Part shown: positions 43,070 through 61,587 of the stretch, in pieces
Layout: every line of letters begins with the position of its first letter
Numbering within the stretch: position 1 is the stretch's first letter
Assembly (NCBI GenBank): GCA_902770835.1
Contig: CACXUM010000007.1
Coordinates: 53,326 to 117,325 of the forward strand
From: an uncultured Bacteroidia bacterium
GTDB taxonomy: Bacteria; Bacteroidota; Bacteroidia; Bacteroidales; F082
DNA: 64,000 nt
Reading direction: 5' to 3'
Notes under the pieces: generated by a model
The model's input: the letters and a program-made list of their open reading frames with translations, nothing else
Databases searched by the model: none
What the model was told of the DNA's origin: nothing
Program-made: the position numbers and the translations under genes

Positions 43070-43656
43070 AAAAGGTTGCGATTACTGGAAACATCGGCAG
43101 CGGCAAGTCGTGGGTGTGCGAACTTTTTCGGCAACGCTTGGACATTCCCGTCTACAACAGCGATGATGCCGCCAAGCGGATGTATTTCGAGCATGATGCG
43201 CAGGAGAAATTGGTGAAACGTTTCGGCAAATCCATTTATCTTTCTGATTCCGAAATTGATAGGAAATATTTGGCCGACTTGGTTTTCCATGACGAAACAG
43301 CCCAACGCGATTTGGAAGGCATACTTTATCCCGCCTTGTTCGTCGACTTTGGACGATGGATGGAACGGCAGAACGCGCCTTACGTCCTGTTTGAATCCGC
43401 GTTGGTTTTTGAGAAGCGTTTGGAGAAACGGTTTGATGCCGTGGTGATGGTTTCGGCTTCGGAACAAACCCGTTTGCGTCGAGCCATGCTCCGCGACCAT
43501 TGCGATGAGGCCACCGTGCGCGCAAGAATGGCCAAACAATGGCCCGAAGAAGGCAAACGCCTCTTGGCCGATTACGTCATTTGGCATGAAAAGGACGATG
43601 AGGATGAGGCCCTTTGGGAACAGATTGTAAAGGTGAATGAAAGTGTTTCATTCTAA
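43066..43656 (+). CDS. coaE: Dephospho-CoA kinase
   Basis: 196 residues. It phosphorylates dephospho-CoA in the last step of CoA synthesis. P-loop GNIGSGKS (8-15), VYNSDDAAKRM substrate motif (DxD-type DD), FESALVFE and the lid Arg region RRAMLRDHCDEATVRARMAKQW. The start overlaps ybbR by 4 nt. The gene ends 9 nt inside the convergent DUF4143 ATPase gene. Confidence 0.93.
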   Translation: MKKVAITGNIGSGKSWVCELFRQRLDIPVYNSDDAAKRMYFEHDAQEKLVKRFGKSIYLSDSEIDRKYLADLVFHDETAQRDLEGILYPALFVDFGRWMERQNAPYVLFESALVFEKRLEKRFDAVVMVSASEQTRLRRAMLRDHCDEATVRARMAKQWPEEGKRLLADYVIWHEKDDEDEALWEQIVKVNESVSF

Positions 43657-45009
43657 CCCCGTCAAGTCGAATTTCACAATCAGGTCGTCCAATTTGGGCT
43701 GGTCGAGAAACATCAGCATATAAATTGGCAAATAAACCGCCTTTTCACGCACCGATACATTATCTTGGCAGAACACGAAAGCCTGATTGACAGCGTATTG
43801 CTCGTTCCTCACGACATTGGAGAGGGCGCGGTGCCGCTCATAGTTCTTCCCTGACTTCACCTCAATAGGCAACACCGCACCGTTGTACTCGATGACAAAG
43901 TCGAGCTCGCCCTGTTTTTTGCTGTTGAAGTAATACAAACCGTGGCCATTGGCAAAGCTGTGGGCGTTGAGTTCTTGTGCTACAAAGTTCTCATACACAG
44001 CACCATAATTGATGTAGTTATCACCGCTTAATAGGCGCAGTTGGATGTTGTCGCCGTACGTGGCAGCTAACAATCCCACATCGTTCAGGAACAGTTTGAA
44101 CAGGTTGCGTTGTTTGTTGAGCAACAAGGGCACTTTTGGTTCCTCCACATTGTAGGTGGGAATGGCCACACCAGCATCGTTCAGCCAAAGGAGGCCGCCT
44201 TCATAGCGGGCAAAGCGGGCTTTTTCGCCTAACTCTTTCAAAGTGAAGCGTTTGTTCTTTGCGTTCAATTCGGCGGGAATCAGGTCGTAAATCTCCTCGA
44301 TTTGCAGTTTGTGTCCGGCATCGTATTTCGTGATGTCGCGCTTGTAGGTGCGGATAATGCCGCGCTGCTGCTCAAGCACGCTTTTCAGGTTGTTCGTGTC
44401 AAGGTATTTTTGCACCACGGCGGGCATTCCACCTATTAATAAATAATGTCGCACCAAATCCAACATCCTTCCATGAATGAAAGCGTCCACGGGCTTGCGC
44501 TGCTCGAAACATTCCCGCAAATGCGCAATCACATCGTCGGAAATGCCTAAGGCGTTTGCAAATTCCTCCAAGTCAAGCGGATACATTTCCATTTCGTCCA
44601 AATAACCCACGGGAACGCTGCGCAAGTCGTTCAATTCGACACCCAAGAGCGAGCCACTCATTACATACTTGTAACTGCCTTCTTCGACCAAAAACTTGAC
44701 GGCGGTCACCATTTCCTTGCACTCTTGCACCTCATCGAAAAAGATGAGCGTTTTGCCCGGCACCAATTTGCGGTTCGTGAACGCCGACAGGCGCAGAAGC
44801 AGGTCTTGGGTGCCTTCAGCCTCCTCAAACAATTTCAGGGCTTCGGGCCGTTCAACGAAATTGACCTCGACAAAATGTTCAAAACATGCCTTTCCCACCT
44901 TTCGGATGGTGAAGGTTTTCCCCACCTGACGGGCACCTGTAACGAGCAATGCACGCTTGTTATTGAGGAGATAATTTTGCATCTCATTTTCCTTCTTGCG
45001 TTTGATCAT
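43648..45009 (-). CDS. AAA_14 ATPase with DUF4143 C-terminal domain
   Basis: 453 residues. Walker A TGARQVGKTF (19-28), Walker B TLIFFDEVQE, sensor-like YVMSGSLLG, then DUF4143 (about 205-410). It ends with a nuclease-like D...E-x-K pattern (GELDFVIEYNGAVLPIEVKSG). The family is very widespread in gut bacteria and archaea; its function is unproven. Upstream is an array of five TTACACTTTTCCAA sites every 33 bp (45083-45230) and a -7 box at 45035. An internal ATG at 44982 is an alternative start. Its 3' end overlaps coaE. Confidence 0.88.
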   Translation of the reverse strand: MIKRKKENEMQNYLLNNKRALLVTGARQVGKTFTIRKVGKACFEHFVEVNFVERPEALKLFEEAEGTQDLLLRLSAFTNRKLVPGKTLIFFDEVQECKEMVTAVKFLVEEGSYKYVMSGSLLGVELNDLRSVPVGYLDEMEMYPLDLEEFANALGISDDVIAHLRECFEQRKPVDAFIHGRMLDLVRHYLLIGGMPAVVQKYLDTNNLKSVLEQQRGIIRTYKRDITKYDAGHKLQIEEIYDLIPAELNAKNKRFTLKELGEKARFARYEGGLLWLNDAGVAIPTYNVEEPKVPLLLNKQRNLFKLFLNDVGLLAATYGDNIQLRLLSGDNYINYGAVYENFVAQELNAHSFANGHGLYYFNSKKQGELDFVIEYNGAVLPIEVKSGKNYERHRALSNVVRNEQYAVNQAFVFCQDNVSVREKAVYLPIYMLMFLDQPKLDDLIVKFDLTGLE

Positions 45010-45034
45010 GGCCTTATCTGTTATAAATCAGCCG

Positions 45035-45042
45035 CAAAGATA
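45035..45042 (-). promoter_or_regulatory. -7 box of the first DUF4143 gene
   Basis: Minus strand TATCTTTG, 26 nt before ATG 45009. The repeat array begins about 40 bp further upstream. Confidence 0.6.
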
Positions 45043-45082
45043 CGGAAATTTTACATTCCGCAATACAAATTTACCCATTTTT

Positions 45083-45230
45083 TTACACTTTTCCAATGGA
45101 AAATCATGCTGTTTTTTACACTTTTCCAATATTAAAATGGCTAAAAAATTACACTTTTCCAATACTAAATTGCCTGATTTTTTACACTTTTCCAACATTG
45201 AAAAATGCCTTTTTTCACACTTTTCTTGCC
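45083..45230. repeat. Five direct repeats of TTACACTTTTCCAA at exact 33-bp spacing
   Basis: Copies at 45083, 45116, 45149 and 45182, and a degenerate one whose ACACTTTTC core starts at 45217. Cores are exactly 33 bp apart (about three helical turns). The intervening 17-19 bp are unrelated to each other. The array fills the space between the divergent promoters of the DUF4143 gene and iorA. Confidence 0.9.
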
Positions 45231-45247
45231 CGTGTCAATTTTTTTCG

Positions 45248-45255
45248 TACCTTTG
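45248..45255 (+). promoter_or_regulatory. -7 box of iorA
   Basis: TACCTTTG; the last array copy falls about where its -33 element would be. Confidence 0.55.
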
Positions 45256-45264
45256 CCCAAACTC

Positions 45265-45313
45265 AAATGTAGAAATCTTGAAATCGTGAAATCTGAAATT
45301 TAGAAATAAAGAA
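45265..45313 (+). repeat. AAATCTTGAAAT leader repeats before iorA
   Basis: GAAATCTTGAAATCGTGAAA, TCTGAAATTTAGAAAT and similar units fill the leader up to ATG 45314. Confidence 0.65.
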
Positions 45314-46894
45314 ATGGAGAAATTATTGCTTTTAGGCGATGAGGCCATTGCACAGGGCTTCATCGACGCGGGCGGCTCGGCCATCAACAGCTATCCGGGC
45401 ACGCCTTCAACCCAAATCACAGAGTATGTCATCAACTCGAAACAGGCCAAGGAACTCGGTGTGATCGCCAACTGGTGCGCCAACGAGAAGACGGCCCTTG
45501 AGGCCTCCATCGGCGTGGCCTACGCCGGCAAACGCGCCATGACGTGCATGAAGCATGTGGGTCTCAACGTGTGCGGCGACCCCTTCATGAACGCCGCCAT
45601 CATCGGCACGAAGGGCGTCCTCGTCGTGGTGGCCGACGACCCGAGCATGTTCTCGTCGCAAGACGAACAAGACAGCCGCTACTACGGTCACTGGGCCATG
45701 ATTCCCATGCTGGAGCCCTCCAACCAACAGGAGGCCTACGACATGGTTCACTACGGCTTCGAGCTCAGCGAGCAACTTGGCACGCCGGTGCTCTACCGCA
45801 TCCCGACCCGCTTGGCCCACAGCCGCGCTGGTGTGGTGCGCAAGCCCGTGCGTCCGCAAAACGAACTGACCGAGCCTGCCGACGCCAAGTCGTTTGTGCT
45901 GCTGCCTGCCAACGCCAAGCGCCTCTACCGCGACCTCATCGACAAGCAGCCCAAGTTCACCGAAGCCTCGGAGAAATCGGGCTACAACAAGTATTTCGAC
46001 GGCCCGAAAAAGAACCTCGGCATCATCACCACGGGTATCGCCTACAACTACCTGATGGAAAACTTCCCCGATGGCAAGTGCCCGTATCCCGTCGTCAAGA
46101 TTACGCAGTATCCGCTGCCTTACGACATGATTAATAAGTTGTACGACGAGTGCGACGAAATCCTTGTCCTTGAAGACGGACAGCCGTTTGTGGAAGAACA
46201 TATCAAGGGCTTCCTCGGCAAGGGCAAGAACGTGATGGGCCGTTTGGACGAAACCATCCGTCGCGACGGTGAACTCAACGCCGAAAAGGTCGCCAAGGCC
46301 CTCGGCATGGATGTTCCCACCATGTTCAAAGTGCCGGAAGTGGTCACCAACCGCCCGCCCGCGCTTTGCCAAGGCTGCCCGCACGTCGACAGTTACAATG
46401 CCTTGAACGAAGTGATGGCCAACCACAAGGGCGGCAAGGTGTTTGGCGACATCGGTTGCTACACTTTGGGCTTCAACATGGGTGCCATCCACACCACCGT
46501 GTGCATGGGAGCCTCCATCACCATGGCCAAGGGCGCGAGCGAGGTGGGTATCTTCCCGAGCGTGGCGGTCATCGGCGACGGCACCTTCGGACACAGCGGC
46601 TTGACGGGCCTCATGGATTGCGTGAACGAGAAAGCCAACGTCGTGGTCATGATTCTCGACAACGACATCACCGCCATGACGGGCGGCCAGCCTTCGTCGG
46701 CACACAACAAGATCCGCCGCATCTGCGAAGGTCTCGGCGTGGAACCTGAGCACATTCGCGACATCGTTCCGCTGCCGAAGAACCACGAAGAGAACGTGAA
46801 AATCATCGAGGAAGAGGTGAACTACAACGGTGTGTCGGTCATCATCCCGCACCGCACCTGCATCGTGGAATTGAAGAAACACATGAAAAAATAA
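45314..46894 (+). CDS. iorA: Indolepyruvate ferredoxin oxidoreductase, alpha subunit
   Basis: 526 residues. Pyrimidine-binding half: SYPGTPSTQITEYV, NEKTALEASIGVAYAGKRAM. TPP-binding half: CQGCPHVDSY, GDIGCYTLGF, VIGDGTFGHSGLTGL and DNDITAMTGGQ. It decarboxylates aryl-pyruvates from aromatic amino acids to acyl-CoA with reduced ferredoxin in anaerobes. It lacks the C-terminal 8Fe ferredoxin domain of longer archaeal IorA, as do other Bacteroidota forms as far as I recall. Together with iorB it forms an operon ending at a terminator. Confidence 0.94.
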   Translation: MEKLLLLGDEAIAQGFIDAGGSAINSYPGTPSTQITEYVINSKQAKELGVIANWCANEKTALEASIGVAYAGKRAMTCMKHVGLNVCGDPFMNAAIIGTKGVLVVVADDPSMFSSQDEQDSRYYGHWAMIPMLEPSNQQEAYDMVHYGFELSEQLGTPVLYRIPTRLAHSRAGVVRKPVRPQNELTEPADAKSFVLLPANAKRLYRDLIDKQPKFTEASEKSGYNKYFDGPKKNLGIITTGIAYNYLMENFPDGKCPYPVVKITQYPLPYDMINKLYDECDEILVLEDGQPFVEEHIKGFLGKGKNVMGRLDETIRRDGELNAEKVAKALGMDVPTMFKVPEVVTNRPPALCQGCPHVDSYNALNEVMANHKGGKVFGDIGCYTLGFNMGAIHTTVCMGASITMAKGASEVGIFPSVAVIGDGTFGHSGLTGLMDCVNEKANVVVMILDNDITAMTGGQPSSAHNKIRRICEGLGVEPEHIRDIVPLPKNHEENVKIIEEEVNYNGVSVIIPHRTCIVELKKHMKK

Positions 46895-47008
46895 GCTGTC
46901 AGCCATCAGCGGTCAGCTATCAGCTCGGTTATAGCGTGCTGAAAGCTGATTGCTGAGAGCTGAAAGCCAATCTTGAAATTAGAAATCTTGAATTTTAAAT
47001 TTAGAAAT
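46895..47008. repeat. AGCTGATAGCT-type palindromes and AATCTTGAAAT leader between iorA and iorB
   Basis: 46895-46965 holds degenerate GTCAGCCATCAGC / GGTCAGCTATCAGC / GCTGAAAGCTGA units in both orientations. 46971-47008 holds AATCTTGAAATTAGAAATCT and related units up to the iorB ATG. Confidence 0.6.
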
Positions 47009-47581
47009 ATGAAAAAAGACATAGTTTTATGCGGCGTGGGTGGCGACGGCATCGTTTCGGTGGCCAAGATCATCTCTGACGCTGCCTTGAATATGGGCAT
47101 GAACCTGAAACAGAGCGAAATCCACGGCATGTCGCAGCGCGGCGGCTCGGTGTTCTCGCACCTTCGCATCTCCGACGATGAGATTTTCGCCGACGTCATT
47201 CCCGAAGGTCAGGCCGACATCATCCTCTCGTCTGAGCCGATGGAAGCCCTGCGTTATCTGCCTTGGCTGAGCAAAGAAGGCTGGGTGATCACCAACAACG
47301 AGCCGTTTGTCAATATCGGCAACTATCCTGACATGGAGGTGATTAACGCCGAGTTGGGCAAGTTGGAGCATGTGGTTTCCTTCAACGCCAACGAAATCGC
47401 CAAGCAGCTGAAGGCCCGTTCCAATATGGTGCTATTGGGTGCCACGGTGCCTTATCTCGGCATCTCGATGGAGAAGGTCGAGGAGGCCATCGCCCACATC
47501 TTTGGCAAAAAAGGCCAAGAGGTTGTGGACCTCAATGTGCAGGCCGTGCGTGCCGGTTACGAACAGGCAACGCAGAAGTAA
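47009..47581 (+). CDS. iorB: Indolepyruvate oxidoreductase, beta (gamma-domain) subunit
   Basis: 190 residues. The gamma-type oxidoreductase domain begins VLCGVGGDGIVSVAKI and contains QSEIHGMSQRGGSVFSHLR, ADIILSSEPMEALRYLPWL and VVSFNANEIAKQL. It pairs with IorA for catabolism of aromatic amino acids. The start at 47009 matches the family N-terminus; an in-frame ATG at 46973 lies in leader repeats. Followed by a strong terminator. Confidence 0.93.
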   Translation: MKKDIVLCGVGGDGIVSVAKIISDAALNMGMNLKQSEIHGMSQRGGSVFSHLRISDDEIFADVIPEGQADIILSSEPMEALRYLPWLSKEGWVITNNEPFVNIGNYPDMEVINAELGKLEHVVSFNANEIAKQLKARSNMVLLGATVPYLGISMEKVEEAIAHIFGKKGQEVVDLNVQAVRAGYEQATQK

Positions 47582-47600
47582 CCTCTGCCGTCCAAATGAA

Positions 47601-47640
47601 AAATGCCCGATTGGTTTTTCCAGTCGGGCATTTGTTTGTG
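47601..47640 (+). terminator. Terminator of iorAB
   Basis: AAATGCCCGA ... TCGGGCATTTGTTTGT. Confidence 0.8.
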
Positions 47641-47684
47641 GTATTGCCTTCGTCAAGAAATGCTTATCATTCAACTAAGTAAAA

Positions 47685-48424
47685 AACAATTATCCGCAAT
47701 TATCCTCACTTTCGTAAAGTCGGTGTTTGAAGGTGGGGTTGTAGGTTATGGAGGCGACGACAAGCTTGTCGAACAGCCCGTCCCCGAAGTGCATCCTGTT
47801 GAACTTGTAGCAGAACTCGTCGAGATACCATTGCAGGAACTCCAGCCTCACGCCGTGGTACATGTCCCTCATCAAAGCCTTGGCGTTGGATATGGCGATG
47901 TGAACCCACGGGAACAGTTTCGGGGCTCCCTTCCCGGGGATGGTCTGCCGCTCCGACTTGCTCGTGACCTCCTCCACGCCGCAATGGCTGGAGAAATTGT
48001 CCATCACCACCATGGCCGACTTATTCACCGAGCCTTCCACCGCCTGCTTGAGGGTGTCAGACTTCAGGCAGGGGATGACCTTCATCTTGACATGGCCGCA
48101 CCTGCGCCCCTTCTGGCCGCTCTTGGGATTGTCGACCTTTTCGCTCTCCATCATCACCAGCACTTTGGCCTTGCGCTGGCTCCCAACCTCGCACTTCAAC
48201 TCCTCGCCTTCCTCACGCCTGCTGTCGATACTGAAGTATTCCTCGTCCAACTCGATGGTGTCCTTCAGCTTGTACATCGAGCCAAGCTCGCTTTCTCAAG
48301 GGGTAGTGCTCACGCGCAGCCTCGCTGTCGAATCTCTTCGAAAACTCTGTCAGTTTCAGATCCCTGTAGGTTTTACTTTTACGACGCAAAAACACATAAT
48401 TTAGATCAATTGAGGACAATCATT
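47685..48424 (-). mobile_element. Truncated IS1595-family insertion sequence
   Basis: Terminal inverted repeats AACAATTATCCGCAATTAT (left, 47685) and AATGATTGTCCTCAATTGAT (right, minus strand, from 48424) match at most positions. The 740-bp length is short for the family (about 1 kb or more). No target duplication was seen. It sits beside the fabG terminator. Confidence 0.75.
47690..48419 (-). pseudogene. IS1595 (ISXO2-like) transposase, internally deleted
   Basis: The C-terminal 195 codons (47690-48277) keep the DDE domain: YKLKDTIELDEEYFSI (first Asp), MVVMDNFSSHC (second Asp) and LQWYLDEFCYKFNR (Glu). Upstream, another frame gives LTEFSKRFDSEAA, the family N-terminus, followed directly by material just before the DDE domain. 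The zinc-ribbon region is thus deleted and the frames no longer join. Inactive remnant; a terminal copy could still be mobilised in trans. Confidence 0.8.
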
Positions 48425-48426
48425 AA

Positions 48427-48454
48427 CCAAAAAAGCCCCACCGTTTGGCGAGGC
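48427..48454 (-). terminator. Terminator of the fab gene block
   Basis: On the minus strand GCCTCGCC-AAAC-GGTGGGGC with two G-T wobbles, then TTTTTT. Confidence 0.7.
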
Positions 48455-48487
48455 TTTCCTTCTGCTATCGTTTTCAAAATAAGTGTT

Positions 48488-49234: not shown

Positions 49235-49274
49235 TTCAGATTTAAGATTTGTTTTTGTTATGATTTTCTTTTTT

Positions 49275-49421
49275 AACTACGGATTCCACGGATAAATCGG
49301 ATTATTTCGGAATCACGAATTTTGCAACTTCGTTGCGGATGATGCGGATATCCGTAAAATGTGCAGCTTTAGCTGCTAAATTCACGAATCGTCATCCGTA
49401 AAATCCGCTTAATCCGTAGTT
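49275..49421. repeat. 147-bp imperfect palindrome between acpP and fabG
   Basis: Outer arms AACTACGGATT (49275-49285) and AATCCGTAGTT (49411-49421); further in, ACGGATAAATCGGATT-like and ATCCGTAAAATCCGCTT-like arms; an inner hairpin GCAGC-TTTA-GCTGC. The right arm reaches the acpP stop codon. Confidence 0.7.
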
Positions 49422-50123: not shown

Positions 50124-50268
50124 ATTAGTTGTTGAATTGTTGAGTTGTTTAATTGTTTAATTGTTGTTTGGCCTATGGTTTATGACTATGGCCTATGGCA
50201 GCTTTGACCGAGGGTAGTAGTTCCATCTTCTGATGAAGCTGCCATCAGCCATTGGCTATGAGCCATAG
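50124..50268. repeat. Simple-sequence leader and stem-loops between fabF and fabZ
   Basis: 50124-50172 carries TTGTTGAATTGTT / TTTAATTG units (leader of fabZ on the minus strand). 50173-50268 has complementary GGCAGCTT...AAGCTGCC and CTATGGC...GAGCCATAG arms. Confidence 0.55.
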
Positions 50269-51513: not shown

Positions 51514-51546
51514 TTCTCTAAACTTTAAACTCTAAACTCTAAACTC
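51514..51546. repeat. TTTAGAG leader repeats before fabF
   Basis: On the minus strand, GAGTTTAGAGTTTAGAGTTT then AAAGTTTAGAGAA run up to the ATG; they continue slightly into the end of fabH. Confidence 0.6.
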
Positions 51547-52500
51547 TCAAAACTCCCATTCCCAAAGGCAGGCGGCGGAAACGAATCCCGCGCCGAAAGC
51601 ACTCATCACAATCTTTTCGCCAGCCTTGATTTTGTTGTCGGCAATCATTTCGTCGAGCATAATCGGGATGCTTGCCGAGGAGGTGTTGCCGTATTTCTCA
51701 ATGATGGTCGGATATTTCGCCACCGGGCCGCCCACGATGTTGCGGATGCCCTCGATGATGCGCTTGTTGGCCTGATGCAGCAAGAACCAGTCGATGTCGT
51801 CGCTCTGCAAGTCGTTACGTTTCAGCAGGGCTTGAATGTCCTTGGCCGATTCCGTAACGGCGGTGCGGAACAATTCCTTGCCCCTCATCACCAATGGCTG
51901 CCCAACGACGTATTTCTCCTGAAAAGGCGTGGGTTCCATACCTCTTTCATAATAAAGCACATCGCGGTCGCTGATCATGGTGAGTTTCACATCCTTGAAG
52001 GCATTGCCCTCGGTGAGGACCACCGCACCGGCGCCGTCGCCAAAGAGAACGCTGCAATCACGTTCCTTCCAGTTGCAGTATTTGGTGGGTTCCTCGGCAC
52101 ATAGTAATAAAATGTTCTTGGCGTGACCCGCCTTCATCATGCCGTCGGCAAGCATCAACGCATTGACAAAGCCGGCACAAGCCACGTTGATGTCGAGGCC
52201 GGCGCAGGTTAGGCCGATGCGTTTCTGCACGATGCAACTCAATCCGGGAGTGACGTGGCGGTTGGCCACATTCGAGACCAAAAGAAAGTCGATTTCGTCC
52301 GGACGCAAGCCCGAAGCCTTGATGGCTTTCGTGGCGGCCTCCACGGAGATGTCGTACAAATCTTCGGTCGATAATAAATGACGCGCCTGAATGCCCGTGC
52401 GGGTGGTGATCCACTCGTCGTTGGTGTCCAAAAACTTGGTCAAGTCTTCGTTGGTCACCGTCAAGGCAGGCAGTGCGCTTCCTGTTCCAATTATTTTCAT
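51547..52500 (-). CDS. fabH: 3-oxoacyl-[acyl-carrier-protein] synthase III
   Basis: 317 residues. Initiating condensing enzyme; catalytic Cys in NVACAGFVNAL, His in LLHQANKRIIEG, Asn in KYGNTSSASIP. The N-terminus MKIIGTGSALPALTVTNEDL and FLDTNDEWITTRTGI resemble clostridial FabH more than the typical Bacteroidota protein. The start at 52500 lies downstream of a -7 box at 52549. First gene of the fab row. Confidence 0.93.
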   Translation of the reverse strand: MKIIGTGSALPALTVTNEDLTKFLDTNDEWITTRTGIQARHLLSTEDLYDISVEAATKAIKASGLRPDEIDFLLVSNVANRHVTPGLSCIVQKRIGLTCAGLDINVACAGFVNALMLADGMMKAGHAKNILLLCAEEPTKYCNWKERDCSVLFGDGAGAVVLTEGNAFKDVKLTMISDRDVLYYERGMEPTPFQEKYVVGQPLVMRGKELFRTAVTESAKDIQALLKRNDLQSDDIDWFLLHQANKRIIEGIRNIVGGPVAKYPTIIEKYGNTSSASIPIMLDEMIADNKIKAGEKIVMSAFGAGFVSAACLWEWEF

Positions 52501-54630: not shown

Positions 54631-54645
54631 ATAGGAGATATTATT

Positions 54646-54753: not shown

Positions 54754-54775
54754 CTGTAGAGTATCTATGTAGATT

Positions 54776-54806: not shown

Positions 54807-54812
54807 ATATTA

Positions 54813-57275
54813 TCACATCCCTCCCATCCCCTGCGGGGCACCTTGTGAGTCGTCGCCGCCTTGGCGGGCGCGCTGCTCGAGTTCCATCTTGCCGAAACGG
54901 AAGGTCACGCCGACGGACACGCTGCGGCTGTTGTACTTGGAATTGGACGTGGACTCAACATACGGGCTGTAGTTCGTGTTGCCCCAGCTGTTCCAGTTGA
55001 AGATGTCGCTGGCATTGACGAACACCGAAAGTTTGCGGTCGAAGAAGTCGGCGCGAAGACCAGCATTGATTCCATAGCGGGCGTGACGCTCACTGAACAA
55101 CGATTGCGTCGGCGAACTGTAATAGCCCGAAGCCGTCACCTCGACCTTGTTCCAAAGTTTTGCCCACATATTGAGGCGGAAACTGTACGACCACATATCA
55201 GACTCGTAGGGTTTCCCATTGTATTCCGTATAAATGTAGGAATCGTAAAGGTTGGCGTAGAAACGCAAGTTGAAGAAGCCGCTCGGACGATACATCACAT
55301 TGGCCTCCAAGCCCGTGCTATAGCTCTTGCCCACATTGACGGGATAGCTGTACGACACCGGGCGACCGTAAAGCCAATACATAGTGCTATCGGACGAAAT
55401 CTTTATCGAATTGACTTCGTTTGACTTGCCGCGATAGTAGGCCGACAAGCCCACCGAGCCGAAACTCATCCAATATTTGGTCCAGCCAGCTTCAATCGAG
55501 TTGGTGTAGATGCGCTCCAAATCGGGATTGCCGCTGCTGTAGATGTCCTCGTGATACATCGGGAAGGCACTCAATTGCTCCGCTTCGGGCGCGGCAATGC
55601 GGCGCGTGTAGCTCAACTTGAAGTTGTGCATCGATTCCGTCCTATAAGAAAGGTGCAACGAAGGCCTCACACTGAAGAAATGCTTGCGGAAGTCGTATTT
55701 CGACGAGTCGGGATAGGCGCCGCTGACCAATTCGCTGACGAAACGGATGCCGGGCTTCACCGTGAAACCACCAAACTTGTGCTGCAAGGTGATGAAGGCC
55801 TCGTTGTTCAGTTTGTTGAAGTTGGCTCTGTAGGAACGGTAAACGTCGTTGTCCCATTCGTACTGTCCGCCAATCTGGTCAGGATTGGTCACCGTATCGG
55901 TGATGAGATACCGCTTTTCGGGGTCGATGCCGAAAGTGTAGCCCACCGAAACCTCGCCGTCCTCGGAATAGGGACGGTTGTAGATGATCTCGCCTTCCGC
56001 ACCGAAGGAACTGAATTGGCTCTCTTGACGCATGATTTTGCGATAGGTGTAGGGTGAAGTGAACGACCTCGTCACCTCGCCGCCGTCGCCACTGCCCCAA
56101 CCCATGGCATCTATGCTGACCGATAGGTTGTGGCCGTCATTGTCGAACTTGTGTTGGTAATACAGTCCGCCATTGACAAAATAACTACGGTCCCATGCGG
56201 TGCTGTTTTCGTCGAAGACGGTCGTCAAAGTATCTGGCAGGAACTCATCGCGATGCACCGACATACTGTTGGTATTGCGTCCCCAATTGGGCCAGCCGCT
56301 GAACCAAACATTGATGCTATTGGCTGTATCTATCTCATAATCAAGGCTGAAATAACCGCCTGTGTTATAACCCTTGTTGCTGTAAATGGAAGTGTCGATT
56401 TCGTGGTTGGCCAACTGGTGCGCCTCGGTGAACAGCGACTGTTCCGAGAACATATTGCCTTTCCAAATGGAATAGCCGCCGTTGATGTAGGCATTGAAAG
56501 TCAGTTTGTCGTTCGACCAAACGTATGACATCCAAGGTGTTACCGAAGGCCTCGTGGAGCCGTTCACGCCGAAGCTGAAGAACTCGTTCTTTTGGATTTT
56601 GGCGTTGGTCACGATGTTGATGATGCCGTCGGCATTGGATCCGTAGCGTGCCGAGGGGTTGGTGATGACTTCCACGCGGTCGATGCTGTTGGCGGGCATC
56701 GTCTGGATGTAGGTCTTGAGGTTTTCGGCGGTCATGTGCGAGGGCTTGTCGTTGATCCACACCTCCACGCTCGACGTGCCGCGCAGGGTGATGTTGCCCT
56801 CCACGTCCACCTCCACGCCGGGCGCGTTCTGCAAGGCATCGGAGGCCGTTCCCGTCTGGATGCTGGGGTCTTCGGCCACGTTGTACATAGTCTTTTCGCC
56901 CTCGACGGCAAACAATGGACGCTTCTCGGTGATAACCACCTCATTGAGTTTGGTTGAGCCTTCCGAAAGTTTCAGTTGGCCAAGGTCTTGGTTGCCTTTC
57001 ACAGTCAAAAGTTGCTCAAAGGTTTGGAAACCGATGGCCGAAACCGCCAAGCGATAGTCGCCGTTGGGCGCCAAAAGCTCGATACGGCCTTTGTCGTCGC
57101 TGGCGGCACCGCTCACGAAGACGCTATCCGCCTGCCTAAACAAACCCACATTGACGAAAGGAATAGCCTTGCCATTGGCTTCCTCGACGATGGTTCCGGT
57201 GATTTTGCTTTGGGCAAATGCCGTTGACGAAATGCCCATCAAAGCGATAATGAACGATAATACAAGTTTTTTCAT
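54813..57275 (-). CDS. TonB-dependent-receptor-like outer-membrane beta-barrel protein
   Basis: 820 residues. Signal peptide (1-21), carboxypeptidase-regulatory-like domain (22-105: ITGTIVEEANGKAIPFVNVG), plug (about 110-220: SDALQNAPGVEVDVEGNITL, RVEVITNPSARYGSNADGI), then a large barrel with many aromatic-girdle strands. It ends with a Gly/Met-rich tail (GAPQGMGGM) typical of the OMP_b-brl family. There is no SusD partner gene, so it is not a classical glycan uptake pair. Likely peptide, metal or signalling transport. Confidence 0.88.
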   Translation of the reverse strand: MKKLVLSFIIALMGISSTAFAQSKITGTIVEEANGKAIPFVNVGLFRQADSVFVSGAASDDKGRIELLAPNGDYRLAVSAIGFQTFEQLLTVKGNQDLGQLKLSEGSTKLNEVVITEKRPLFAVEGEKTMYNVAEDPSIQTGTASDALQNAPGVEVDVEGNITLRGTSSVEVWINDKPSHMTAENLKTYIQTMPANSIDRVEVITNPSARYGSNADGIINIVTNAKIQKNEFFSFGVNGSTRPSVTPWMSYVWSNDKLTFNAYINGGYSIWKGNMFSEQSLFTEAHQLANHEIDTSIYSNKGYNTGGYFSLDYEIDTANSINVWFSGWPNWGRNTNSMSVHRDEFLPDTLTTVFDENSTAWDRSYFVNGGLYYQHKFDNDGHNLSVSIDAMGWGSGDGGEVTRSFTSPYTYRKIMRQESQFSSFGAEGEIIYNRPYSEDGEVSVGYTFGIDPEKRYLITDTVTNPDQIGGQYEWDNDVYRSYRANFNKLNNEAFITLQHKFGGFTVKPGIRFVSELVSGAYPDSSKYDFRKHFFSVRPSLHLSYRTESMHNFKLSYTRRIAAPEAEQLSAFPMYHEDIYSSGNPDLERIYTNSIEAGWTKYWMSFGSVGLSAYYRGKSNEVNSIKISSDSTMYWLYGRPVSYSYPVNVGKSYSTGLEANVMYRPSGFFNLRFYANLYDSYIYTEYNGKPYESDMWSYSFRLNMWAKLWNKVEVTASGYYSSPTQSLFSERHARYGINAGLRADFFDRKLSVFVNASDIFNWNSWGNTNYSPYVESTSNSKYNSRSVSVGVTFRFGKMELEQRARQGGDDSQGAPQGMGGM

Positions 57276-57372
57276 GACTTTACTAATGATTAAGGTATTA
57301 ACTGATAATTTTTACTTTTCGTATGGTCGAAAACAATTTTTGTTTTTAGTGTATCAGTAAACTATAACGCTG

Positions 57373-57380
57373 CAAAAGTA
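57373..57380 (-). promoter_or_regulatory. -7 box of the receptor-like barrel gene
   Basis: Minus strand TACTTTTG, about 97 nt before the start, leaving an AT-rich leader. Confidence 0.5.
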
Positions 57381-57441
57381 CGGCTTTTTTTGATACTGTC
57401 AAGGGAAAAGTTGATTTTTTTGAAAAATAATCTCATTTGTT

Positions 57442-57464
57442 CCGCTGGATTTGCAATCCAGCGG
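57442..57464. repeat. Perfect 10-bp-arm hairpin
   Basis: CCGCTGGATT-TGC-AATCCAGCGG with no T-run; a stand-alone dyad between divergent promoters. Confidence 0.8.
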
Positions 57465-57520
57465 CATTGGGTTAGACAACAAAAGTAGGGAAATGCTACA
57501 AGAATTCAGGGGGAAATTTG

Positions 57521-57528
57521 TATGTTTG
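57521..57528 (+). promoter_or_regulatory. -7 box of the 57567 gene
   Basis: TATGTTTG. It overlaps an ATG at 57522 that cannot be used, so the start moves to 57567. Confidence 0.55.
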
Positions 57529-57566
57529 CAGCCGAAAACATCCATCTTTTTCTATTAGAGCAAATC

Positions 57567-58115
57567 ATGGCGGAATTGGATATAGCATTGGAATTGACAA
57601 AACTGCACTCTATAAGAGGTGTCGCATTTGTTCGTCAATTGAAGATGCTGACCAATCTCAACATATTCAAACCTATTGAAAACGAAAGAGATATTTTCGC
57701 TGCTGAAGCAAGCCATCGCGACGATTGGCCGTTGCTTCTTGATGCTGCCCGAAAAGCCGTTTCACATGGTAACAAGGTCTTTATCCTTCCCAATCCAAAA
57801 GGGACCAAAACGGCCGACTATATATTTGAAAACAAGGGAGTTTGTAAGTTGTTTGATTTGAAAACAATAACAGGCAAAGCTTCGCTTGGGAACAGGCTGG
57901 TGGAATCTGTTGACCAAACCAATCGGGTGCTTGTGAATGTCTGCACCACCTACAACCCGCGACTGATGGCCACACAAATCAAGAACTATTTCGATTCCAA
58001 TCCTTTTGCCGTGGAAGTATTGATTTACAAAGGCAAAAAGGCCATTTCCATAACTCGTCGTTTCACCGAGAACCCCCTCTACATGGTTCTGTTCAGACAG
58101 AAATATATGCAATAA
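57567..58115 (+). CDS. CdiA C-terminal tRNase-like (PD-(D/E)XK fold) protein
   Basis: 182 residues without signal peptide. The segment LLLDAARKAVSHGNKVFILP, then KTADYIFENKGVCKLFDLKT (Asp and DLK spacing of PD-(D/E)XK nucleases), QTNRVLVNV and VEVLIYKGKKAISITR parallels the CdiA-CT tRNase-like domain found at the ends of contact toxins and in mobile elements. Here it is free-standing with its own promoter and terminator and no immunity gene. The match is by pattern; nuclease activity is inference. Confidence 0.5.
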   Translation: MAELDIALELTKLHSIRGVAFVRQLKMLTNLNIFKPIENERDIFAAEASHRDDWPLLLDAARKAVSHGNKVFILPNPKGTKTADYIFENKGVCKLFDLKTITGKASLGNRLVESVDQTNRVLVNVCTTYNPRLMATQIKNYFDSNPFAVEVLIYKGKKAISITRRFTENPLYMVLFRQKYMQ

Positions 58116-58145
58116 AAAAGCCACCTTTTAAGGGTGGCCTTTTTA
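58115..58145 (+). terminator. Terminator of the 57567 gene
   Basis: AAAAAAGCCACC ... GGGTGGCCTTTTT. Confidence 0.88.
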
Positions 58146-58264
58146 ATTGGGGCAGGGTCGATAAGGGCTTACCCCCACTCGGCAAGTACCGGATTAGTCA
58201 TTTCTGACACTGCAAAATTACAAACTTTTTTCCATCCCGCAAGGGTTTTATGAATATTTTGTAT

Positions 58265-59524
58265 CTACTGCCTAATCAATCGCTCGCAGAAATCGTCCAA
58301 TTTGTCTTTTCTCCATATCCAACCGATGGAGAACGATTTGTTAGTAACGCCATGCAAAGACGTGAAATTCGTCTTGTGATACACCATGCCATCAACAACC
58401 AAGGCAATGTCCAACGACTTGATTTTCTCTCCAGTTTGGAAATAGTCATGCCAAAGTTGTCCAGCCTCGGGTGTCAAGCGAATGATAACGGGAATCTTTT
58501 CCTCTTGGTCTTTGTTGAAAACAGACTCTCGTGCCACCACTTCTTCTACCACTGGCTTACCTCCAATGCGTGCCGAACTGACAATCGGCCCCTCGGGCGA
58601 ATTCATTTTCAGCGCATAGAGTTGCACTTGTGCCTCGTTGTCACCAAATCCTTTCATCACCACAAGTGATTCATTTTGTTGCCATTTTTCCGTCACCGCC
58701 GAAACTTCGGTTGGTGCGACAACCGTGTCGGCATAGACTTCCCAAACCGACAGTTGTTCCTCCGCCGGAATCTTGGTGTCAGGGCGTTTATAGGTCACGT
58801 TGCGCCACATCGGCGGCAGTTTCAGATAGGTTCCGACAATCGTGTATGCCCAAATGTCGAGACCGATGAATGCGACAAGCATGGCGATGCAGAACCACTG
58901 CTGTTTCTTATTGAAACCTGTTTCTTTATTTGTTGTTGTCTCAAAAGCCTCAATTTGTCGAATAATCTCGTCGCAAGGCCTTGTCTTATAGCGAATTTCA
59001 CTAATCCCCAAAACTATCATTCCAACAACAACTGCCAAAAATGTCAACATCATTGGCTTTCCACTATAGTTTTCGCCCACCAATGACATTAACAAGCCAC
59101 AAACAAGGATGAGTCCAGTGGAATAATTCAGGACGGTAAAGACGGAAAAGAGTTTCTTGAAACTTCGAGCGGTGTGGGAAAGAACGAGCAAATCGTCGTT
59201 TTCCAATGTTTTTCGCTGGAATTTGCGAGTCAAAACAAGTTCAATGACCAGGCAAGTGAACATAAATGCGACCCAAAACAGACTTAACGAAAGATTGTTG
59301 CCAAACCACAATTTGATTCCTAATAGACCAAAAATGGCAGCCAACGGACACATTATAATGCTCCTCATCCGGTTGCGTCTGTAGAAGTCCGTGCCCTGCT
59401 TGATGGATGACTTCATCAACCTATCATTGACGATTTCCTGTTGTTCGAACTGTTGTTTCAGCGTTTCGTATTGCGCTTTCAGTTGGTCGAGTTCGTTCAG
59501 ATTGTTGTTTTCGTTGTTTTCCAT
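58265..59524 (-). CDS. Membrane protein cotranscribed with an ECF sigma factor
   Basis: 419 residues. An N-terminal coiled coil (LNELDQLKAQYETLKQQFEQ), then about five transmembrane helices (IIMCPLAAIFGLLGIKLWF, LFWVAFMFTCLVIELVL, YSTGLILVCGLLMSLV, MLTFLAVVVGMIVLGI, WFCIAMLVAFIGLDIWAYTI), then a periplasmic or soluble tail of about 170 residues. Similar proteins follow ECF sigma genes in Bacteroidota and may act as sensors or anti-sigma-like partners; that role is inference. It starts 12 nt after the sigma gene. Confidence 0.7.
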   Translation of the reverse strand: MENNENNNLNELDQLKAQYETLKQQFEQQEIVNDRLMKSSIKQGTDFYRRNRMRSIIMCPLAAIFGLLGIKLWFGNNLSLSLFWVAFMFTCLVIELVLTRKFQRKTLENDDLLVLSHTARSFKKLFSVFTVLNYSTGLILVCGLLMSLVGENYSGKPMMLTFLAVVVGMIVLGISEIRYKTRPCDEIIRQIEAFETTTNKETGFNKKQQWFCIAMLVAFIGLDIWAYTIVGTYLKLPPMWRNVTYKRPDTKIPAEEQLSVWEVYADTVVAPTEVSAVTEKWQQNESLVVMKGFGDNEAQVQLYALKMNSPEGPIVSSARIGGKPVVEEVVARESVFNKDQEEKIPVIIRLTPEAGQLWHDYFQTGEKIKSLDIALVVDGMVYHKTNFTSLHGVTNKSFSIGWIWRKDKLDDFCERLIRQ

Positions 59525-59536
59525 GATGATTCCCTT

Positions 59537-60025
59537 TCATTCTTTTTTCGACATTTTCACCAATTTTTCCTTGATGCGCGCCAGCCTCACCCCTACGTTG
59601 TTGGGCGTGATGCCGATGATGGCCCCGATTTCGTCGTAACTGACGCCTTCGAGCCAAAGCAGGATGAGGCTTCGGTCGATGAGGTCTAAGCGCGAGATGC
59701 GGTCGTAGAGTTCGCGGATTTGTTGTGTCTTGGGGTCATCGGCCTCGTAGGGGTCGATGTCCACCGTCAGCGGCACGGTCTCAATGCGCCGGCGTTCCTT
59801 CTTGTCTTGGTTGATGGCCGTGTTGAGCGCGACGCGATAGATCCAAGTCTGCGCGGTGCTGCGTCCCTCGTAGTTGTCGAAGCCGTTCCAAAGCCTGATG
59901 AGGATTTCCTGAAACAGGTCGTCGATTTCGGCCTTGTTGCGCGAGAACATATAGCACACCGTGTAGATGGTCCGCTTGTGCTGCCGCACCAAAAGTTCAA
60001 ACTGATGTTCCTTGTCGTTGTTCAT
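59537..60025 (-). CDS. ECF-type RNA polymerase sigma factor
   Basis: 162 residues. Region 2 (FELLVRQHKRTIYTVCYMFS, DLFQEILIRLWNGFDNYEG, TWIYRVALNTAINQ) and region 4 (LLWLEGVSYDEIGAIIGITP, VGVRLARIKEKLV) are complete. The start at 60025 (MNNDKEH) is preferred over 60043. Paired with the membrane protein downstream. Target promoters unknown. Confidence 0.93.
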   Translation of the reverse strand: MNNDKEHQFELLVRQHKRTIYTVCYMFSRNKAEIDDLFQEILIRLWNGFDNYEGRSTAQTWIYRVALNTAINQDKKERRRIETVPLTVDIDPYEADDPKTQQIRELYDRISRLDLIDRSLILLWLEGVSYDEIGAIIGITPNNVGVRLARIKEKLVKMSKKE

Positions 60026-60106
60026 AATGCGTTTTCGTTGCAACGTTCATAAAGTAGGGAAATATTACAAAAGAACAAACATTTTTGACAAAATACCAAA
60101 ATATAG

Positions 60107-60198
60107 GCCAACTGCCACATCAAAAACACGCCAACTGCCACATCAAAAACACGCCAACTGCCATATCAAAAACACGCCAACTGCCACATCAAAAACAA
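60107..60198. repeat. Four 23-bp tandem repeats upstream of the second DUF4143 gene
   Basis: Copies start at 60107, 60130, 60153 and 60176; each begins GCCAACTGCCACATC and ends AAAAACAC. One substitution in copy three and one at the end of copy four. They lie 67-158 bp before the -7 box. Confidence 0.92.
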
Positions 60199-60264
60199 TT
60201 AAATACTATTATATCAATAATTTACAATTTTTCAAAAATTTTCTATTTTTATTGAAATTTTTGC

Positions 60265-60272
60265 TAATTTTG
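60265..60272 (+). promoter_or_regulatory. -7 box of the second DUF4143 gene
   Basis: TAATTTTG, 22 nt before ATG 60295. Confidence 0.55.
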
Positions 60273-60294
60273 CATCCGAAAAACTGCGTATTTT

Positions 60295-61587
60295 ATGAAA
60301 GAATACAAAAACAGAATTGCCGACCAAATCCTAACCGAAAAGTTGGAAGCGATGGGTGCAGTACTCATCGAAGGACCAAAGTATTGCGGAAAGACTTCGC
60401 TTGCCGCGCAACAGGCGAAAAGCATCCTTTATATGTCGGACCCCGAAACAAGAAACCAAAATTTGGCTTTGGCCAAAACCAACATCAAGCGACTTTTGGA
60501 GGGCGACACGCCTCGGCTTATCGACGAATGGCAACTTGCTCCGCAATTCTGGGACGCTGTGCGGAACGAGGTGGACAGACGTGACGAAGACGGACAATTT
60601 ATGCTGACTGGCTCTGCCGTTCCGCCCAAACCCAAAGACGAGGACGAGCAAATCTTCCATTCGGGCGCGGGCCGCATCGCCTATCTCAAACTACACACGA
60701 TGAGCCTTTGGGAATCTGAGGACTCAACGGGAGAGGTCAGTTTGGGAAGACTTTTCGAATCGACCGAGCAGGTTGAAGGGACGAGCCACATCGACCTTGA
60801 CCGTTTGGCCTTCCTCACTTGCCGAGGCGGATGGCCCAAGGCCGTGTTGAAAAAAAACGAGAAAGCAGCATTGGCGCAGGCCATCGAGTATTATGAGGCC
60901 GTGGTGCGCGCCGACATCTCGCGCGTGGATGACGTGGAAAGAGACCCAGACTTGGCCATACGACTGATGCGTTCCTATGCCCGGCACCAAGGCGCACAGG
61001 CCACGGCAGGCACCATTTTGGAAGACATCAGGACCAACGAGGCTGACTCTTTGAGCGAGAACACCATCTACAACTATATCAAGGCGTTGAAGAAGATTTT
61101 TGTCATTGAGGATGCTGCGGCGTGGAATCCCAATTTAAGGAGCAAGACCGCCATCAGGACCTCCGACACAAGGTATTTCTCCGACCCTTCCGTCGCCACG
61201 GCTGCCTTGGGACTTGGCCCAAAAGACCTCATCAACGACTTGAACACCTTCGGACTGTTCTTCGAAACGCTCTGTATGAGAGACCTCCGCGTCTATGCCG
61301 ATGCTCTTGGTGGAACTGTCTATCATTACCGCGACAAGAGCAACCTCGAATGTGACGCTGTTGTACATTTGCGCAACGGATCTTACGGCCTCATCGAAAT
61401 CAAGTTGGGAGGGAAAGACCTCATAGAGGAAGGGTCAAAAACGCTGAAAAATTTGGCTGAAAAAATCGACACCACCAAAATGAAAAAGCCTTCATTTATG
61501 ATGGTGCTGACAGGCATTGGCGACTATGCCTACAAAAGACCGAAGGACGACGTTTTAGTTGTTCCCGTGGGATGCTTGAAGCATTAA
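60295..61587 (+). CDS. AAA_14 ATPase with DUF4143 domain (second copy)
   Basis: 430 residues. Variant Walker A EGPKYCGKTS (26-35), Walker B PRLIDEWQLAP, sensor FMLTGSAVPP, arginine-rich HSGAGRIAYLKLHTMSLWES. DUF4143 follows from about 200, with the C-terminal D...E-x-K pattern (LECDAVVHLRNGSYGLIEIK). It is only distantly similar to the 43648 protein, yet again preceded by a direct-repeat array. Function unproven; both may be self-controlled selfish or defence-type ATPases. Confidence 0.88.
   Translation: MKEYKNRIADQILTEKLEAMGAVLIEGPKYCGKTSLAAQQAKSILYMSDPETRNQNLALAKTNIKRLLEGDTPRLIDEWQLAPQFWDAVRNEVDRRDEDGQFMLTGSAVPPKPKDEDEQIFHSGAGRIAYLKLHTMSLWESEDSTGEVSLGRLFESTEQVEGTSHIDLDRLAFLTCRGGWPKAVLKKNEKAALAQAIEYYEAVVRADISRVDDVERDPDLAIRLMRSYARHQGAQATAGTILEDIRTNEADSLSENTIYNYIKALKKIFVIEDAAAWNPNLRSKTAIRTSDTRYFSDPSVATAALGLGPKDLINDLNTFGLFFETLCMRDLRVYADALGGTVYHYRDKSNLECDAVVHLRNGSYGLIEIKLGGKDLIEEGSKTLKNLAEKIDTTKMKKPSFMMVLTGIGDYAYKRPKDDVLVVPVGCLKH

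Follow-up and report, generated by a model that had tools for sequence, protein, structure and literature searches.

Two genes for DUF4143 proteins lie in the window (the whole stretch of 64,000 nucleotides analysed here, from an uncultured Bacteroidia bacterium), each preceded by an ordered array of direct repeats, and the locus raises the question of whether such arrays are general in this family, whether each protein reads its own array and what the arrays are for. Gene 1 (positions 43648 to 45009, reverse strand, 453 amino acids) belongs to the subfamily with 32- to 33-bp arrays, and gene 2 (60295 to 61587, forward strand, 430 amino acids) belongs to the subfamily with 23-bp arrays. The preliminary description had assigned to both an AAA_14 ATPase and a D...E-x-K motif, and these assignments held. 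The Pfam scores for AAA_14 and DUF4143 were above the gathering cut-off in gene 1 (88.4 and 109.3 bits, respectively; its C-terminal part is read as a winged HTH plus a PD-(D/E)XK domain) and in gene 2 (49.2 and 102.3 bits). In gene 2 the motif runs from D354 to E368-x-K370 (61354 to 61404, forward strand). Its three residues were invariant in 21 and in 56 aligned gene-2-type homologues (the 21 proteins of alignment A1 had been picked from genes with a 23-bp array), and the AF2 model (pLDDT, 93.9; 81.3 for gene 1) places them on neighbouring strands (352 to 359 and 364 to 370). By this motif both proteins would belong to the PD-(D/E)XK nuclease superfamily, and nuclease activity is predicted.

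Upstream of gene 1, a 33-bp period was found at 45061 to 45225. It includes four exact units (TTGGAAAAGTGTAA, reverse strand; 45083-45096, 45116-45129, 45149-45162 and 45182-45195) with a spacing of exactly 33 bp (45083 to 45195 overall). With degenerate end copies included, a chain model gave seven units, spaced 32, 33, 33, 33, 33 and 32 bp, between about 45043 and 45228 (the outer limits are approximate and were set by eye). Gene 2 is preceded by four 23-bp units (GCCAACTGCCACATCAAAAACAC, forward strand; 60107 to 60197) that start at 60107, 60130, 60153 and 60176. The -7 box of Bacteroidota promoters has the consensus TAnnTTTG, and by-eye reading placed one at 45035 to 45042 for gene 1 (TATCTTTG, reverse strand) and a putative one at 60265 to 60272 for gene 2 (TAATTTTG, forward strand), so that the earlier figure of 40 to 160 bp between arrays and boxes is about right.

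Both arrays were thus as first described, and the suggestion drawn from these two cases, that the arrangement is general, was borne out by a large enrichment over control genes. Of 54 DUF4143 matches in the host genome, 3 are fragments (contig end, internal stops or 49 amino acids), and 49 genes were used for the TRF test (score of at least 90 within 400 bp upstream). Arrays were detected in 29 of these 49 genes versus 23 of 784 other ORFs (Fisher, 1.6e-26; another tally of the controls gives 27 of 784). Several of the positive control ORFs either lie divergently on the far side of an array already counted or are paralogues that had escaped recognition. Across eight genomes, a period scan gave z values of at least 5 for 90 of 132 family genes, leaving 42 below that level, versus 54 of 922 controls that had no DNA in common with the family upstream regions. 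At a TRF score of at least 60, few arrays appeared in two genomes (0 of 4 genes in G005 and 1 of 6 in G010), and 10 weak family proteins of G000 (own-HMM score below 100) had no array at a TRF score of at least 50. Arrays are, in all, strongly enriched upstream of DUF4143 family genes.

Unit spacing follows protein subfamily, at 23 bp for the gene-2 type, 32 to 33 bp for the gene-1 type and 22 bp in some others. When gene-2-type genes were picked by P-loop motif and not by array, 21 of 21 showed a period of 23 or 46, while 26 of 32 genes of the long gene-1 type reached a z value of at least 5, all 26 at 32 or 33. Among 28 gene-1-type loci of the order, 20 scored best at 32 or 33 out of 45 periods (two of the 28 had already been counted; 19 of the 26 new ones were best there). 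Eighty named relatives from several phyla, many of them MAGs, were found by protein alone; 3 with less than 200 bp upstream were excluded, and 75 of the 77 usable loci, which still include the duplicate-genome records L142 and L209, had a best period of 23 or 46. A gene-2 relative was found in 40 plasmid and 4 phage records, of which 10 and 4 were examined; among 27 plasmid, phage and distant members, with identities as low as about 30%, the top period was 23 or 46 in 24.

The 98 gene-2-type arrays retained for covariation hold 2 to 9 copies each, in constant orientation. A motif chain trained on these arrays passed its threshold in 96 of them when the period was 23 (in 11 at 22 and in 10 at 24), on the reverse strand in 2 of 98 and in 0 of 922 controls; since the 98 had been chosen beforehand by such a chain score, this result shows period and strand, not frequency. 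In the 23-bp type, core identity was 0.88 versus 0.61 for the spacer, and in the 33-bp type core columns reached 0.74 to 0.94 versus 0.29 to 0.73 elsewhere, although the chain search itself rewards core identity in both. The 23-bp units lie head to tail, and the 33-bp units consist of a conserved 13-bp core and a filler that drifts at fixed length; from these repeats alone, a CRISPR array was rejected. The subfamily backbones are GCCAAnnnnCnnAA and TGGAAAAnTGT.

In most genes, not all, the array is also phased with its own promoter. For Bacteroidota genes with a -7 box, the box lies 50 to 56 bp after the start of the last unit in 42 of 57, gene 2 of the window being an outlier at 89 bp. Outside Bacteroidota, a -35 hexamer follows the last core by 4 to 7 bp in 21 of 37 genes, and 8 of the 37 have it within the last unit. 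In the 33-bp type, 13 of 40 genes have the -7 box at phase 12 of 33, where it overlaps a unit end.

The units are, moreover, largely private to their genes. All four matches to the gene-2 unit with at most 1 mismatch in 3.26 Mb fell inside its own array, with nine 2-mismatch matches elsewhere (3 for the reversed-pattern control). For the gene-1 unit, four of five exact copies were inside its own array and seven 1-mismatch matches elsewhere (reversed-pattern control, 3). Gene-2-type units of the paralogues compared within one genome differed by at least 3 of 14 core positions. The window genes and many others stand singly amid what are presumably ordinary chromosomal genes. Family matches number from 1 to 54 in genomes of the same genus (the eight relatives are 62 to 89% complete), and genes are present or absent between conserved flanks, as in gene turnover and not as in a replicon. 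In one case, that of the sister genome G313, gene 2 is missing and a single relic unit remains beside the break.

Whether each protein recognises its own array was approached through covariation. From 109 gene-2-type genes, those of G000 to G011 having been taken by array presence, 98 gene/array pairs were kept after removal of two duplicate-genome records (L142 and L209), four low-scoring or short ones (L212, L025, L066 and L120) and five viral ones; the tree test used the 98 rows, and mutual information used 100 weighted rows that include the two duplicates. A Mantel test of unit against protein gave an r of 0.275 (0 of 5,000 permutations), versus 0.064 for the control flank. APC-corrected mutual information (APC-MI) was highest for unit base 1 with residue 348 (0.62) and base 12 with residue 256 (0.54), followed by base 2 with 348 (0.40) and base 11 with 256 (0.27); the control maximum was 0.22 over 25,380 flank pairs. 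Residue 256 belongs to the third, or recognition, helix of the HTH (codons 255 to 267, 61057 to 61095, forward strand in gene 2), and K348 (61336 to 61338) occupies the turn of a beta hairpin beside the nuclease motif. On the tree, 9 of 10 changes of residue 348 shared a branch with a change of base 1 (P, 5e-11), as did 11 of 32 changes of residue 256 with base 12 (P, 7e-6), each residue ranking top among protein columns for its own base. Leave-cluster-out prediction was right in 90 of 98 pairs for base 1 (baseline, 78) and 48 of 98 for base 12 (baseline, 31). The code is leaky: T accompanies K348 in 4 of 79 pairs, A accompanies D256 in 4 of 31, and the 28 pairs with E256 divide into 19 with G and 9 with A. 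The units of the 23-bp type thus change in step with residues that read DNA, and each protein is therefore likely to recognise its array and to control its own gene; on this comparison of sequences, own-array recognition appears well supported for that type.

Coevolution, the check proposed earlier, was thus borne out for the 23-bp type, and self-recognition is probable there. The same search among 64 gene-1-type pairs, with 33-bp arrays, gave no unit-residue pair above the control maximum of 0.33, perhaps because the units lacked a common register and K364, the equivalent of residue 348, hardly varies among the 13 proteins of alignment A2. Distant members were held out as a further check, with the phase set in 8 of 27 and the phase rule and thresholds revised for the final version. 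The base-12 rule was right in 5 of 7, and the base-1 rule in 3 of 7 (4 of 7 for a constant G), which leaves the latter unsupported in a small test. Two members with S348 and N256, L229 and L120, have CT...CAC units with 1 or 2 extra bases between half-sites; by eye they are compatible with the code, and they were left uncounted. Within-genome unit pairs differed more than between-genome pairs in most occupied identity bins and less in one, and at 30 pairs they are too few for a claim of selection for orthogonality.

Structure comparison gave the proteins distant relatives. The best Foldseek matches of gene 2 were 2qen (PABY2304; 2e-7) and 2fna (SSO1545; 7e-7), archaeal ATPases of the STAND/MNS type, followed by an NLR, DNA-bound ORC1/Cdc6 and others. 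The MuB filament was also among the best fold matches, and the Foldseek matches included 8bob, a complex of the maltose system, probably that of MalT. TM-scores normalised by query length were modest (2qen, 0.44; 2fna, 0.38; 2v1u, 0.24 to 0.29), so the similarity to the STAND/ORC-Cdc6 fold is partial; gene 1 had no sequence relative in the PDB (best E value, 0.51). As in gene 2, the archaeal STAND-type ATPases and ORC1/Cdc6 carry an AAA+ core followed by a winged HTH, and we know of no operator array for the archaeal enzymes. MalT, a STAND regulator, and PhoB, with a winged HTH, bind direct repeats at their targets. Their boxes control regulons, whereas near-perfect units of either window gene hardly occur away from that gene's promoter.

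The preliminary description knew of no established function for the family; PADLOC models both genes as an unvalidated phage-defence candidate, PDC-S01, reportedly presented by Payne et al. in a 2024 preprint (doi 10.1101/2024.01.29.577857, as cited in PMC12988326) as a candidate anti-phage single-gene system. The models fit most of both window proteins (gene 1, 1.6e-193 over residues 1 to 450 of 453; gene 2, 6.1e-59 over 1 to 394 of 430), the anti-phage role being itself a candidate one. PDC-S01 is described as an ATPase fused to a PD-(D/E)XK domain and, among PDCs that mostly await experimental validation, as the fourth most common (candidate) defence across prokaryotes; its description there mentions no upstream arrays or self-recognition (PMC12988326). 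Among open-licence PMC papers, no title or beginning of an abstract pointed to such arrays, which is weak evidence of absence.

Of the three purposes first offered (autoregulation, copy control and target marking), autoregulation fits best, since most arrays are promoter phased and near copies of either window unit are rarely met outside the array to which it belongs. We consider it quite probable that the arrays are operators through which a STAND/ORC-like ATPase-nuclease regulates its own gene, probably by repression. In each self-regulating module, an ATPase of the STAND/ORC-Cdc6-like kind that carries a winged HTH and a PD-(D/E)XK domain would be paired with a promoter-phased array of predicted binding sites of its own. 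Protein copies would bind side by side, about two or three helical turns apart, and such binding would be cooperative and sense protein concentration. Occupancy would lower transcription of the gene itself, as suggested by units that lie directly against the -35, contribute to it or run into the -7 box. Unit diversity would keep dozens of paralogues from cross-regulation, and a trigger (nucleotide state or an invader) would relieve the repression and release the ATPase-nuclease.

Both the sign of control and the nuclease target we infer. Activation of its own promoter by the array, a positive autoregulation like that of MalT or PhoB, seems to us rather improbable. The gap of 4 to 7 bp between last core and -35 puts the core at the usual activator position, an array that abuts the -35 without covering it is compatible with activation too, and 8bob is among the Foldseek matches, but a -35 inside the last unit and a -7 box overlapping the unit end point to occlusion. 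It is unlikely that the nuclease has the array as its target or docking site, with bases 1 and 2 of each unit read by the hairpin, the enzyme poised there to cut, and the array cut on activation (self-destruction), used in gene mobility or loss, or kept as an armed inactive store. The strongest covarying residue lies just before D354, E368 and K370 and not only in the HTH, the motif is invariant in the 56 homologues, family counts vary widely within the genus, and a relic unit marks the break in G313. Against this, constitutive cutting of its own promoter would presumably be lethal, the 98 arrays keep their copies, promoter phasing is unexplained unless regulation is also involved, and the relic break is one case. 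We advance only tentatively a broader version, of self-addressed ATPase-nucleases in several phyla: a private, helically phased array read by HTH and nuclease hairpin might be both operator and docking site, holding the nuclease assembled and inactive, dozens of modules per genome would diversify the code for orthogonality, and on a trigger the protein would leave or cut the array and become an active effector.

The remaining explanations are harder to reconcile with the units themselves. A separate host transcription factor, the family merely having a common regulator, would account for the common backbone within each subfamily; it is very unlikely, given that gene-2-type units are private within one genome, that the arrangement recurs in several phyla and on plasmids, and that unit bases change together with residues of the adjacent protein. 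Plasmid iterons, read by the adjacent gene's Rep product, which autoregulates, resemble the arrays in that direct repeats follow one another at a distance of about two helical turns, and 22-bp direct repeats with autoregulation, like the ORC1/Cdc6-DNA and MuB matches, recall them. Copy control by a relative of a replication initiator, with arrays as iterons of integrated or former plasmids, is nevertheless highly improbable. Pfam found only AAA_14, DUF4143 and a sub-threshold AAA_16, and no initiator domain, in the window genes; the genes are single and chromosomal, turn over between conserved flanks and, unlike Rep/iteron plasmids, come with private units, a nuclease domain and dozens of paralogous copies in a genome. 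That the arrays are merely tandem repeats due to chance or low complexity in AT-rich intergenic sequence, some of which the controls contain, has a negligible probability, as period (uniform in the 21 and 26 subfamily genes above), strand, promoter phase and rigid spacing are all family specific.

If the arrays are operators of their own genes, as we favour, a cognate DNA site beside many family genes offers a handle on binding, structure, specificity code and regulation together, and the family becomes a natural source of protein/operator pairs that are probably orthogonal. It also provides a case in which a nuclease-domain hairpin seems to take part in operator reading, in a candidate defence family described as the fourth most common across prokaryotes (PMC12988326).

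Each of the two DUF4143 genes of the window was confirmed to have a direct-repeat array upstream, as the preliminary description had claimed. Gene 1 (positions 43648 to 45009, minus strand) is preceded by exact units TTGGAAAAGTGTAA, one per 33 bp, and gene 2 (60295 to 61587, plus strand) by four 23-bp units GCCAACTGCCACATCAAAAACAC, one of which carries a single change within its first 16 bases. PADLOC assigned both proteins to PDC-S01, an unvalidated defence candidate (PMC12988326, PMC13356809), and an NCBIfam search with both proteins gave no match. When the 16 bases of the gene-2 unit were searched in 3.26 Mb with at most one mismatch, four matches were obtained, every one in its own array; two mismatches yielded nine matches elsewhere, versus three for the reversed pattern. 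The gene-1 unit gave five exact matches, four of them in its own array, and with one mismatch seven elsewhere, versus three for the reversed pattern. Among the gene-2-type paralogues compared within one genome, at least 3 of the 14 core positions differed.

The host genome (G000; 85.8% complete) contained 54 DUF4143 matches. Using 60 of its stretches and the 400 bp upstream of each open reading frame of at least 100 amino acids (simple ORF caller), tandem repeats with a TRF score of at least 70 and a period of 18 to 70 were found at 29/49 DUF4143 genes versus 27/784 other frames. Several of these 27 control positives were divergent neighbours at the same array as a DUF4143 gene, and L023_5197 and L056_14279 were paralogues missed by Pfam DUF4143. 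No array was found upstream of the 10 weak HMM matches (score below 100) of this genome. At a TRF score of at least 60, with eight genomes pooled, the family and control counts were 32/60 and 31/785 in G000, 10/18 and 2/37 in G001, 9/15 and 4/41 in G002, 5/12 and 2/36 in G003, 0/4 and 1/13 in G005, 4/7 and 0/16 in G007, 1/6 and 1/14 in G010, and 9/22 and 3/39 in G011. A period scan (best of 45 periods) reached z≥5 in 90/132 family genes versus 54/922 controls. The enrichment held in both analyses, in agreement with the general arrangement suspected from the window. Array period tracked the protein subfamily, and control periods were scattered. All 21 gene-2-type genes showed a period of 23 or 46, and 26 of the 32 genes of the gene-1 long type reached z≥5, all 26 at 32 or 33. 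The same threshold was passed by 8/11 GARR-type genes (33 in seven, 34 in one), 6/14 of the short GARQ type (32 in five, 33 in one), 3/5 of the GPRQ type (32 in two, 44 in one) and 26/49 remaining family genes (17 of the 26 at 22, 32 or 33).

A search with 21 gene-2-type proteins confirmed 584 relatives, the best 80 of which were analysed. These came from Bacteroidota, Firmicutes, Spirochaetes, Fibrobacter, Actinobacteria (Gardnerella) and Proteobacteria, many being MAG contigs for which some taxon labels may be wrong; the isolates include Treponema vincentii, Gardnerella vaginalis, Neglectibacter timonensis and Porphyromonas levii. The best period was 23 or 46 in 75 of the 77 with enough upstream DNA. 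A set of 27 from plasmids, phages, viral contigs and distant members of the phylum gave 23 or 46 in 24, the exceptions being 22 in two Rhizobiaceae members and 25 in one member. The 98 arrays used to train a motif chain had been preselected by a similar chain score, so that its result speaks only for exact period and strand; the chain reached the threshold in 96/98 at period 23, 11 at period 22, 10 at period 24, 2 on the reverse strand and 0/922 controls. A search for the gene-1 type in 149 genomes from the order gave matches in 37; 30 loci were returned, 28 of them readable, and the best period was 32 or 33 in 20/28 (19/26 of those newly counted). Viral-classed contigs and records (L221-L227, L274-L280 and L304-L307) contained both subfamilies, mostly accompanied by arrays. 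Mobile elements may therefore carry these modules, the alternative being prophages or bin errors.

The 23-bp-type unit consists of GCCAAnnnnCnnAA followed by nine A/T-rich bases. Within arrays, identity was 0.88 in the 14-bp core versus 0.61 in the spacer; between genes, core positions 6 to 9, 11, 12 and 14 carried the least information. In the 33-bp type, the 13-bp core of neighbouring copies was 0.74 to 0.94 identical and the remaining columns 0.29 to 0.73, a contrast somewhat inflated because the search favours similar cores; spacing was constant, with 66 pairs at exactly 33. This difference between core and spacer at fixed spacing would be expected from selection on spaced, putative binding sites rather than from a simple recent duplication. 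At 10.5 bp per turn, the periods of 23 and 33 bp would correspond to about 2.2 and 3.1 helical turns.

The distance to the promoter was mostly constant, indicating that the array is mostly tied to the promoter of its own gene. A -7 box was found in 57 of the 61 Bacteroidota 23-bp-type genes scanned, and in 42 of the 57 it began 50 to 56 bp past the last unit's start; window gene 2 was an exception (89 bp). Among the 37 remaining 23-bp-type genes, two of them from viral contigs, 21 had the best -35 hexamer starting 4 to 7 bp past the last core, and 8 had it within the last unit, where it often read TTGCCA. Of 40 genes of the 33-bp type, 13 had the -7 box at phase 12, overlapping the unit end, and 15 had it at phases 20 to 24.

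The preliminary description had further suggested that the protein recognizes its own array and had named coevolution of the two as a test. Mutual information was calculated for unit positions against 423 protein columns; 60 columns of flanking DNA served as control, and the start model and unit registers were set without protein information. In the 23-bp type, five pairs exceeded the control maximum of 0.22: unit base 1 with K348 (0.62), base 12 with N256 (0.54), base 2 with K348 (0.40), base 11 with N256 (0.27) and base 12 with L220 (0.24), in gene-2 numbering. Residues 348 and 256 each ranked first among protein columns for their own base. Lysine or arginine at 348 accompanied G at base 1 in 80/86 cases, serine C in 9/9 and asparagine T in 3/3; at 256, aspartate accompanied G at base 12 in 26/31, asparagine C in 13/17 and lysine A in 4/4, and glutamate went with G in 19/28 and A in 9/28. 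On a tree built without the segments of both residues, and with K and R merged at 348, changes were placed on 10 branches for residue 348 and on 15 for base 1, 9 being shared (hypergeometric, 5e-11); for residue 256 and base 12 the numbers were 32 and 18, with 11 shared (7e-6). We infer that S348, together with C at base 1, arose separately in Treponema, in Rickettsiales and in three branches of Bacteroidales. Leave-cluster-out prediction was right for base 1 in 90/98 versus a baseline of 78/98, and for base 12 in 48/98 versus 31/98. In a small distant held-out test, the base-1 rule was unsupported (3/7), and the base-12 rule performed better (5/7). In 64 gene-1-type pairs, unit-residue covariation was sought and not found. 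Judging from these sequence patterns, the array is very probably read by its own protein, at least in the 23-bp type.

In the AlphaFold2 model of gene 2 (pLDDT 93.9), helices 218-230, 238-247 and 255-267 form a winged HTH, with residue 256 near the beginning of the third helix. Residue 348 lies in the turn joining strands 340-347 and 352-359, immediately preceding the invariant D354 and E368-x-K370. The gene-1 model showed the same element order at lower confidence (pLDDT 81.3, 8 sequences). Foldseek placed the archaeal ATPases 2qen and 2fna at the top for gene 2, then an NLR, DNA-bound ORC1/Cdc6 and 8bob, a maltose-system complex; ORC1/Cdc6 and MuB filaments were top for gene 1.

Family counts in same-genus genomes, which are incomplete, ranged from 1 to 54. 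Gene 1 lies between genes that we take to be coaE and iorA. It was present at 2 of 12 same-genus iorA loci (G000 and the related genome G313) and absent between coaE and iorA in five (L286, L287, L288, L290 and L291), the remaining five having a different upstream neighbour. The G313 copy is 97% identical, its array shorter by one 33-bp unit. The end of gene 1 (43648 to 43656) falls within the 3' end of coaE, whose last codons differ in five genomes of the genus that lack gene 1; the arrival of gene 1 thus seems to have replaced the coaE tail. Gene 2 is absent from G313, where the flanks are 93 to 96% identical and one degenerate unit remains beside the break (L282, approximately 2640-2720), so it was most likely lost there. 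Two non-family genes of the host genome also have upstream arrays (L051, 9588-10413, 41 bp, AAATTGGCCGAT-like; L055, 4175-5588, 33 bp), which may be left over from family members that were lost.

Other repeats were observed. A divergent DUF4143 pair (C14:46296, minus strand, and C14:48135, plus strand) has one common 22-bp array (L001, approximately 10480-10560) whose unit includes an inverted repeat (ATCTAAAGTTTAGAT). A 21-bp tandem repeat at 24638-24780 of the window lies within coding frame 23509-24978 (plus strand) and encodes repeated KHVEKD, probably a flexible protein repeat and no operator array; a coding-like repeat upstream of L058_8270 (EKLVENQ, read by eye from the unit) resembles it. 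Near the window start, 72-bp and 46-bp tandem repeats (1356-1497 and 1856-2030) with the common element GGATTGCTTCGT / CGCAATGACG are unrelated to DUF4143. Short AT-rich tandem repeats between ordinary genes (41729-41772, 45265-45323, 50129-50166 and 51516-51547), with units of 7 to 16 bp and one also of 31 bp, are unlike the DUF4143 arrays.

Among the uses of the array considered earlier, autoregulation is the best supported, a negative sign being more likely. Since a hairpin of the nuclease domain would take part in site reading, the array could also be a docking or target site of the nuclease. Taken as a whole, the earlier proposal stands in stronger form: the sequences point to a family-wide tendency for a putative ATPase-nuclease to be paired with a private, phased array.
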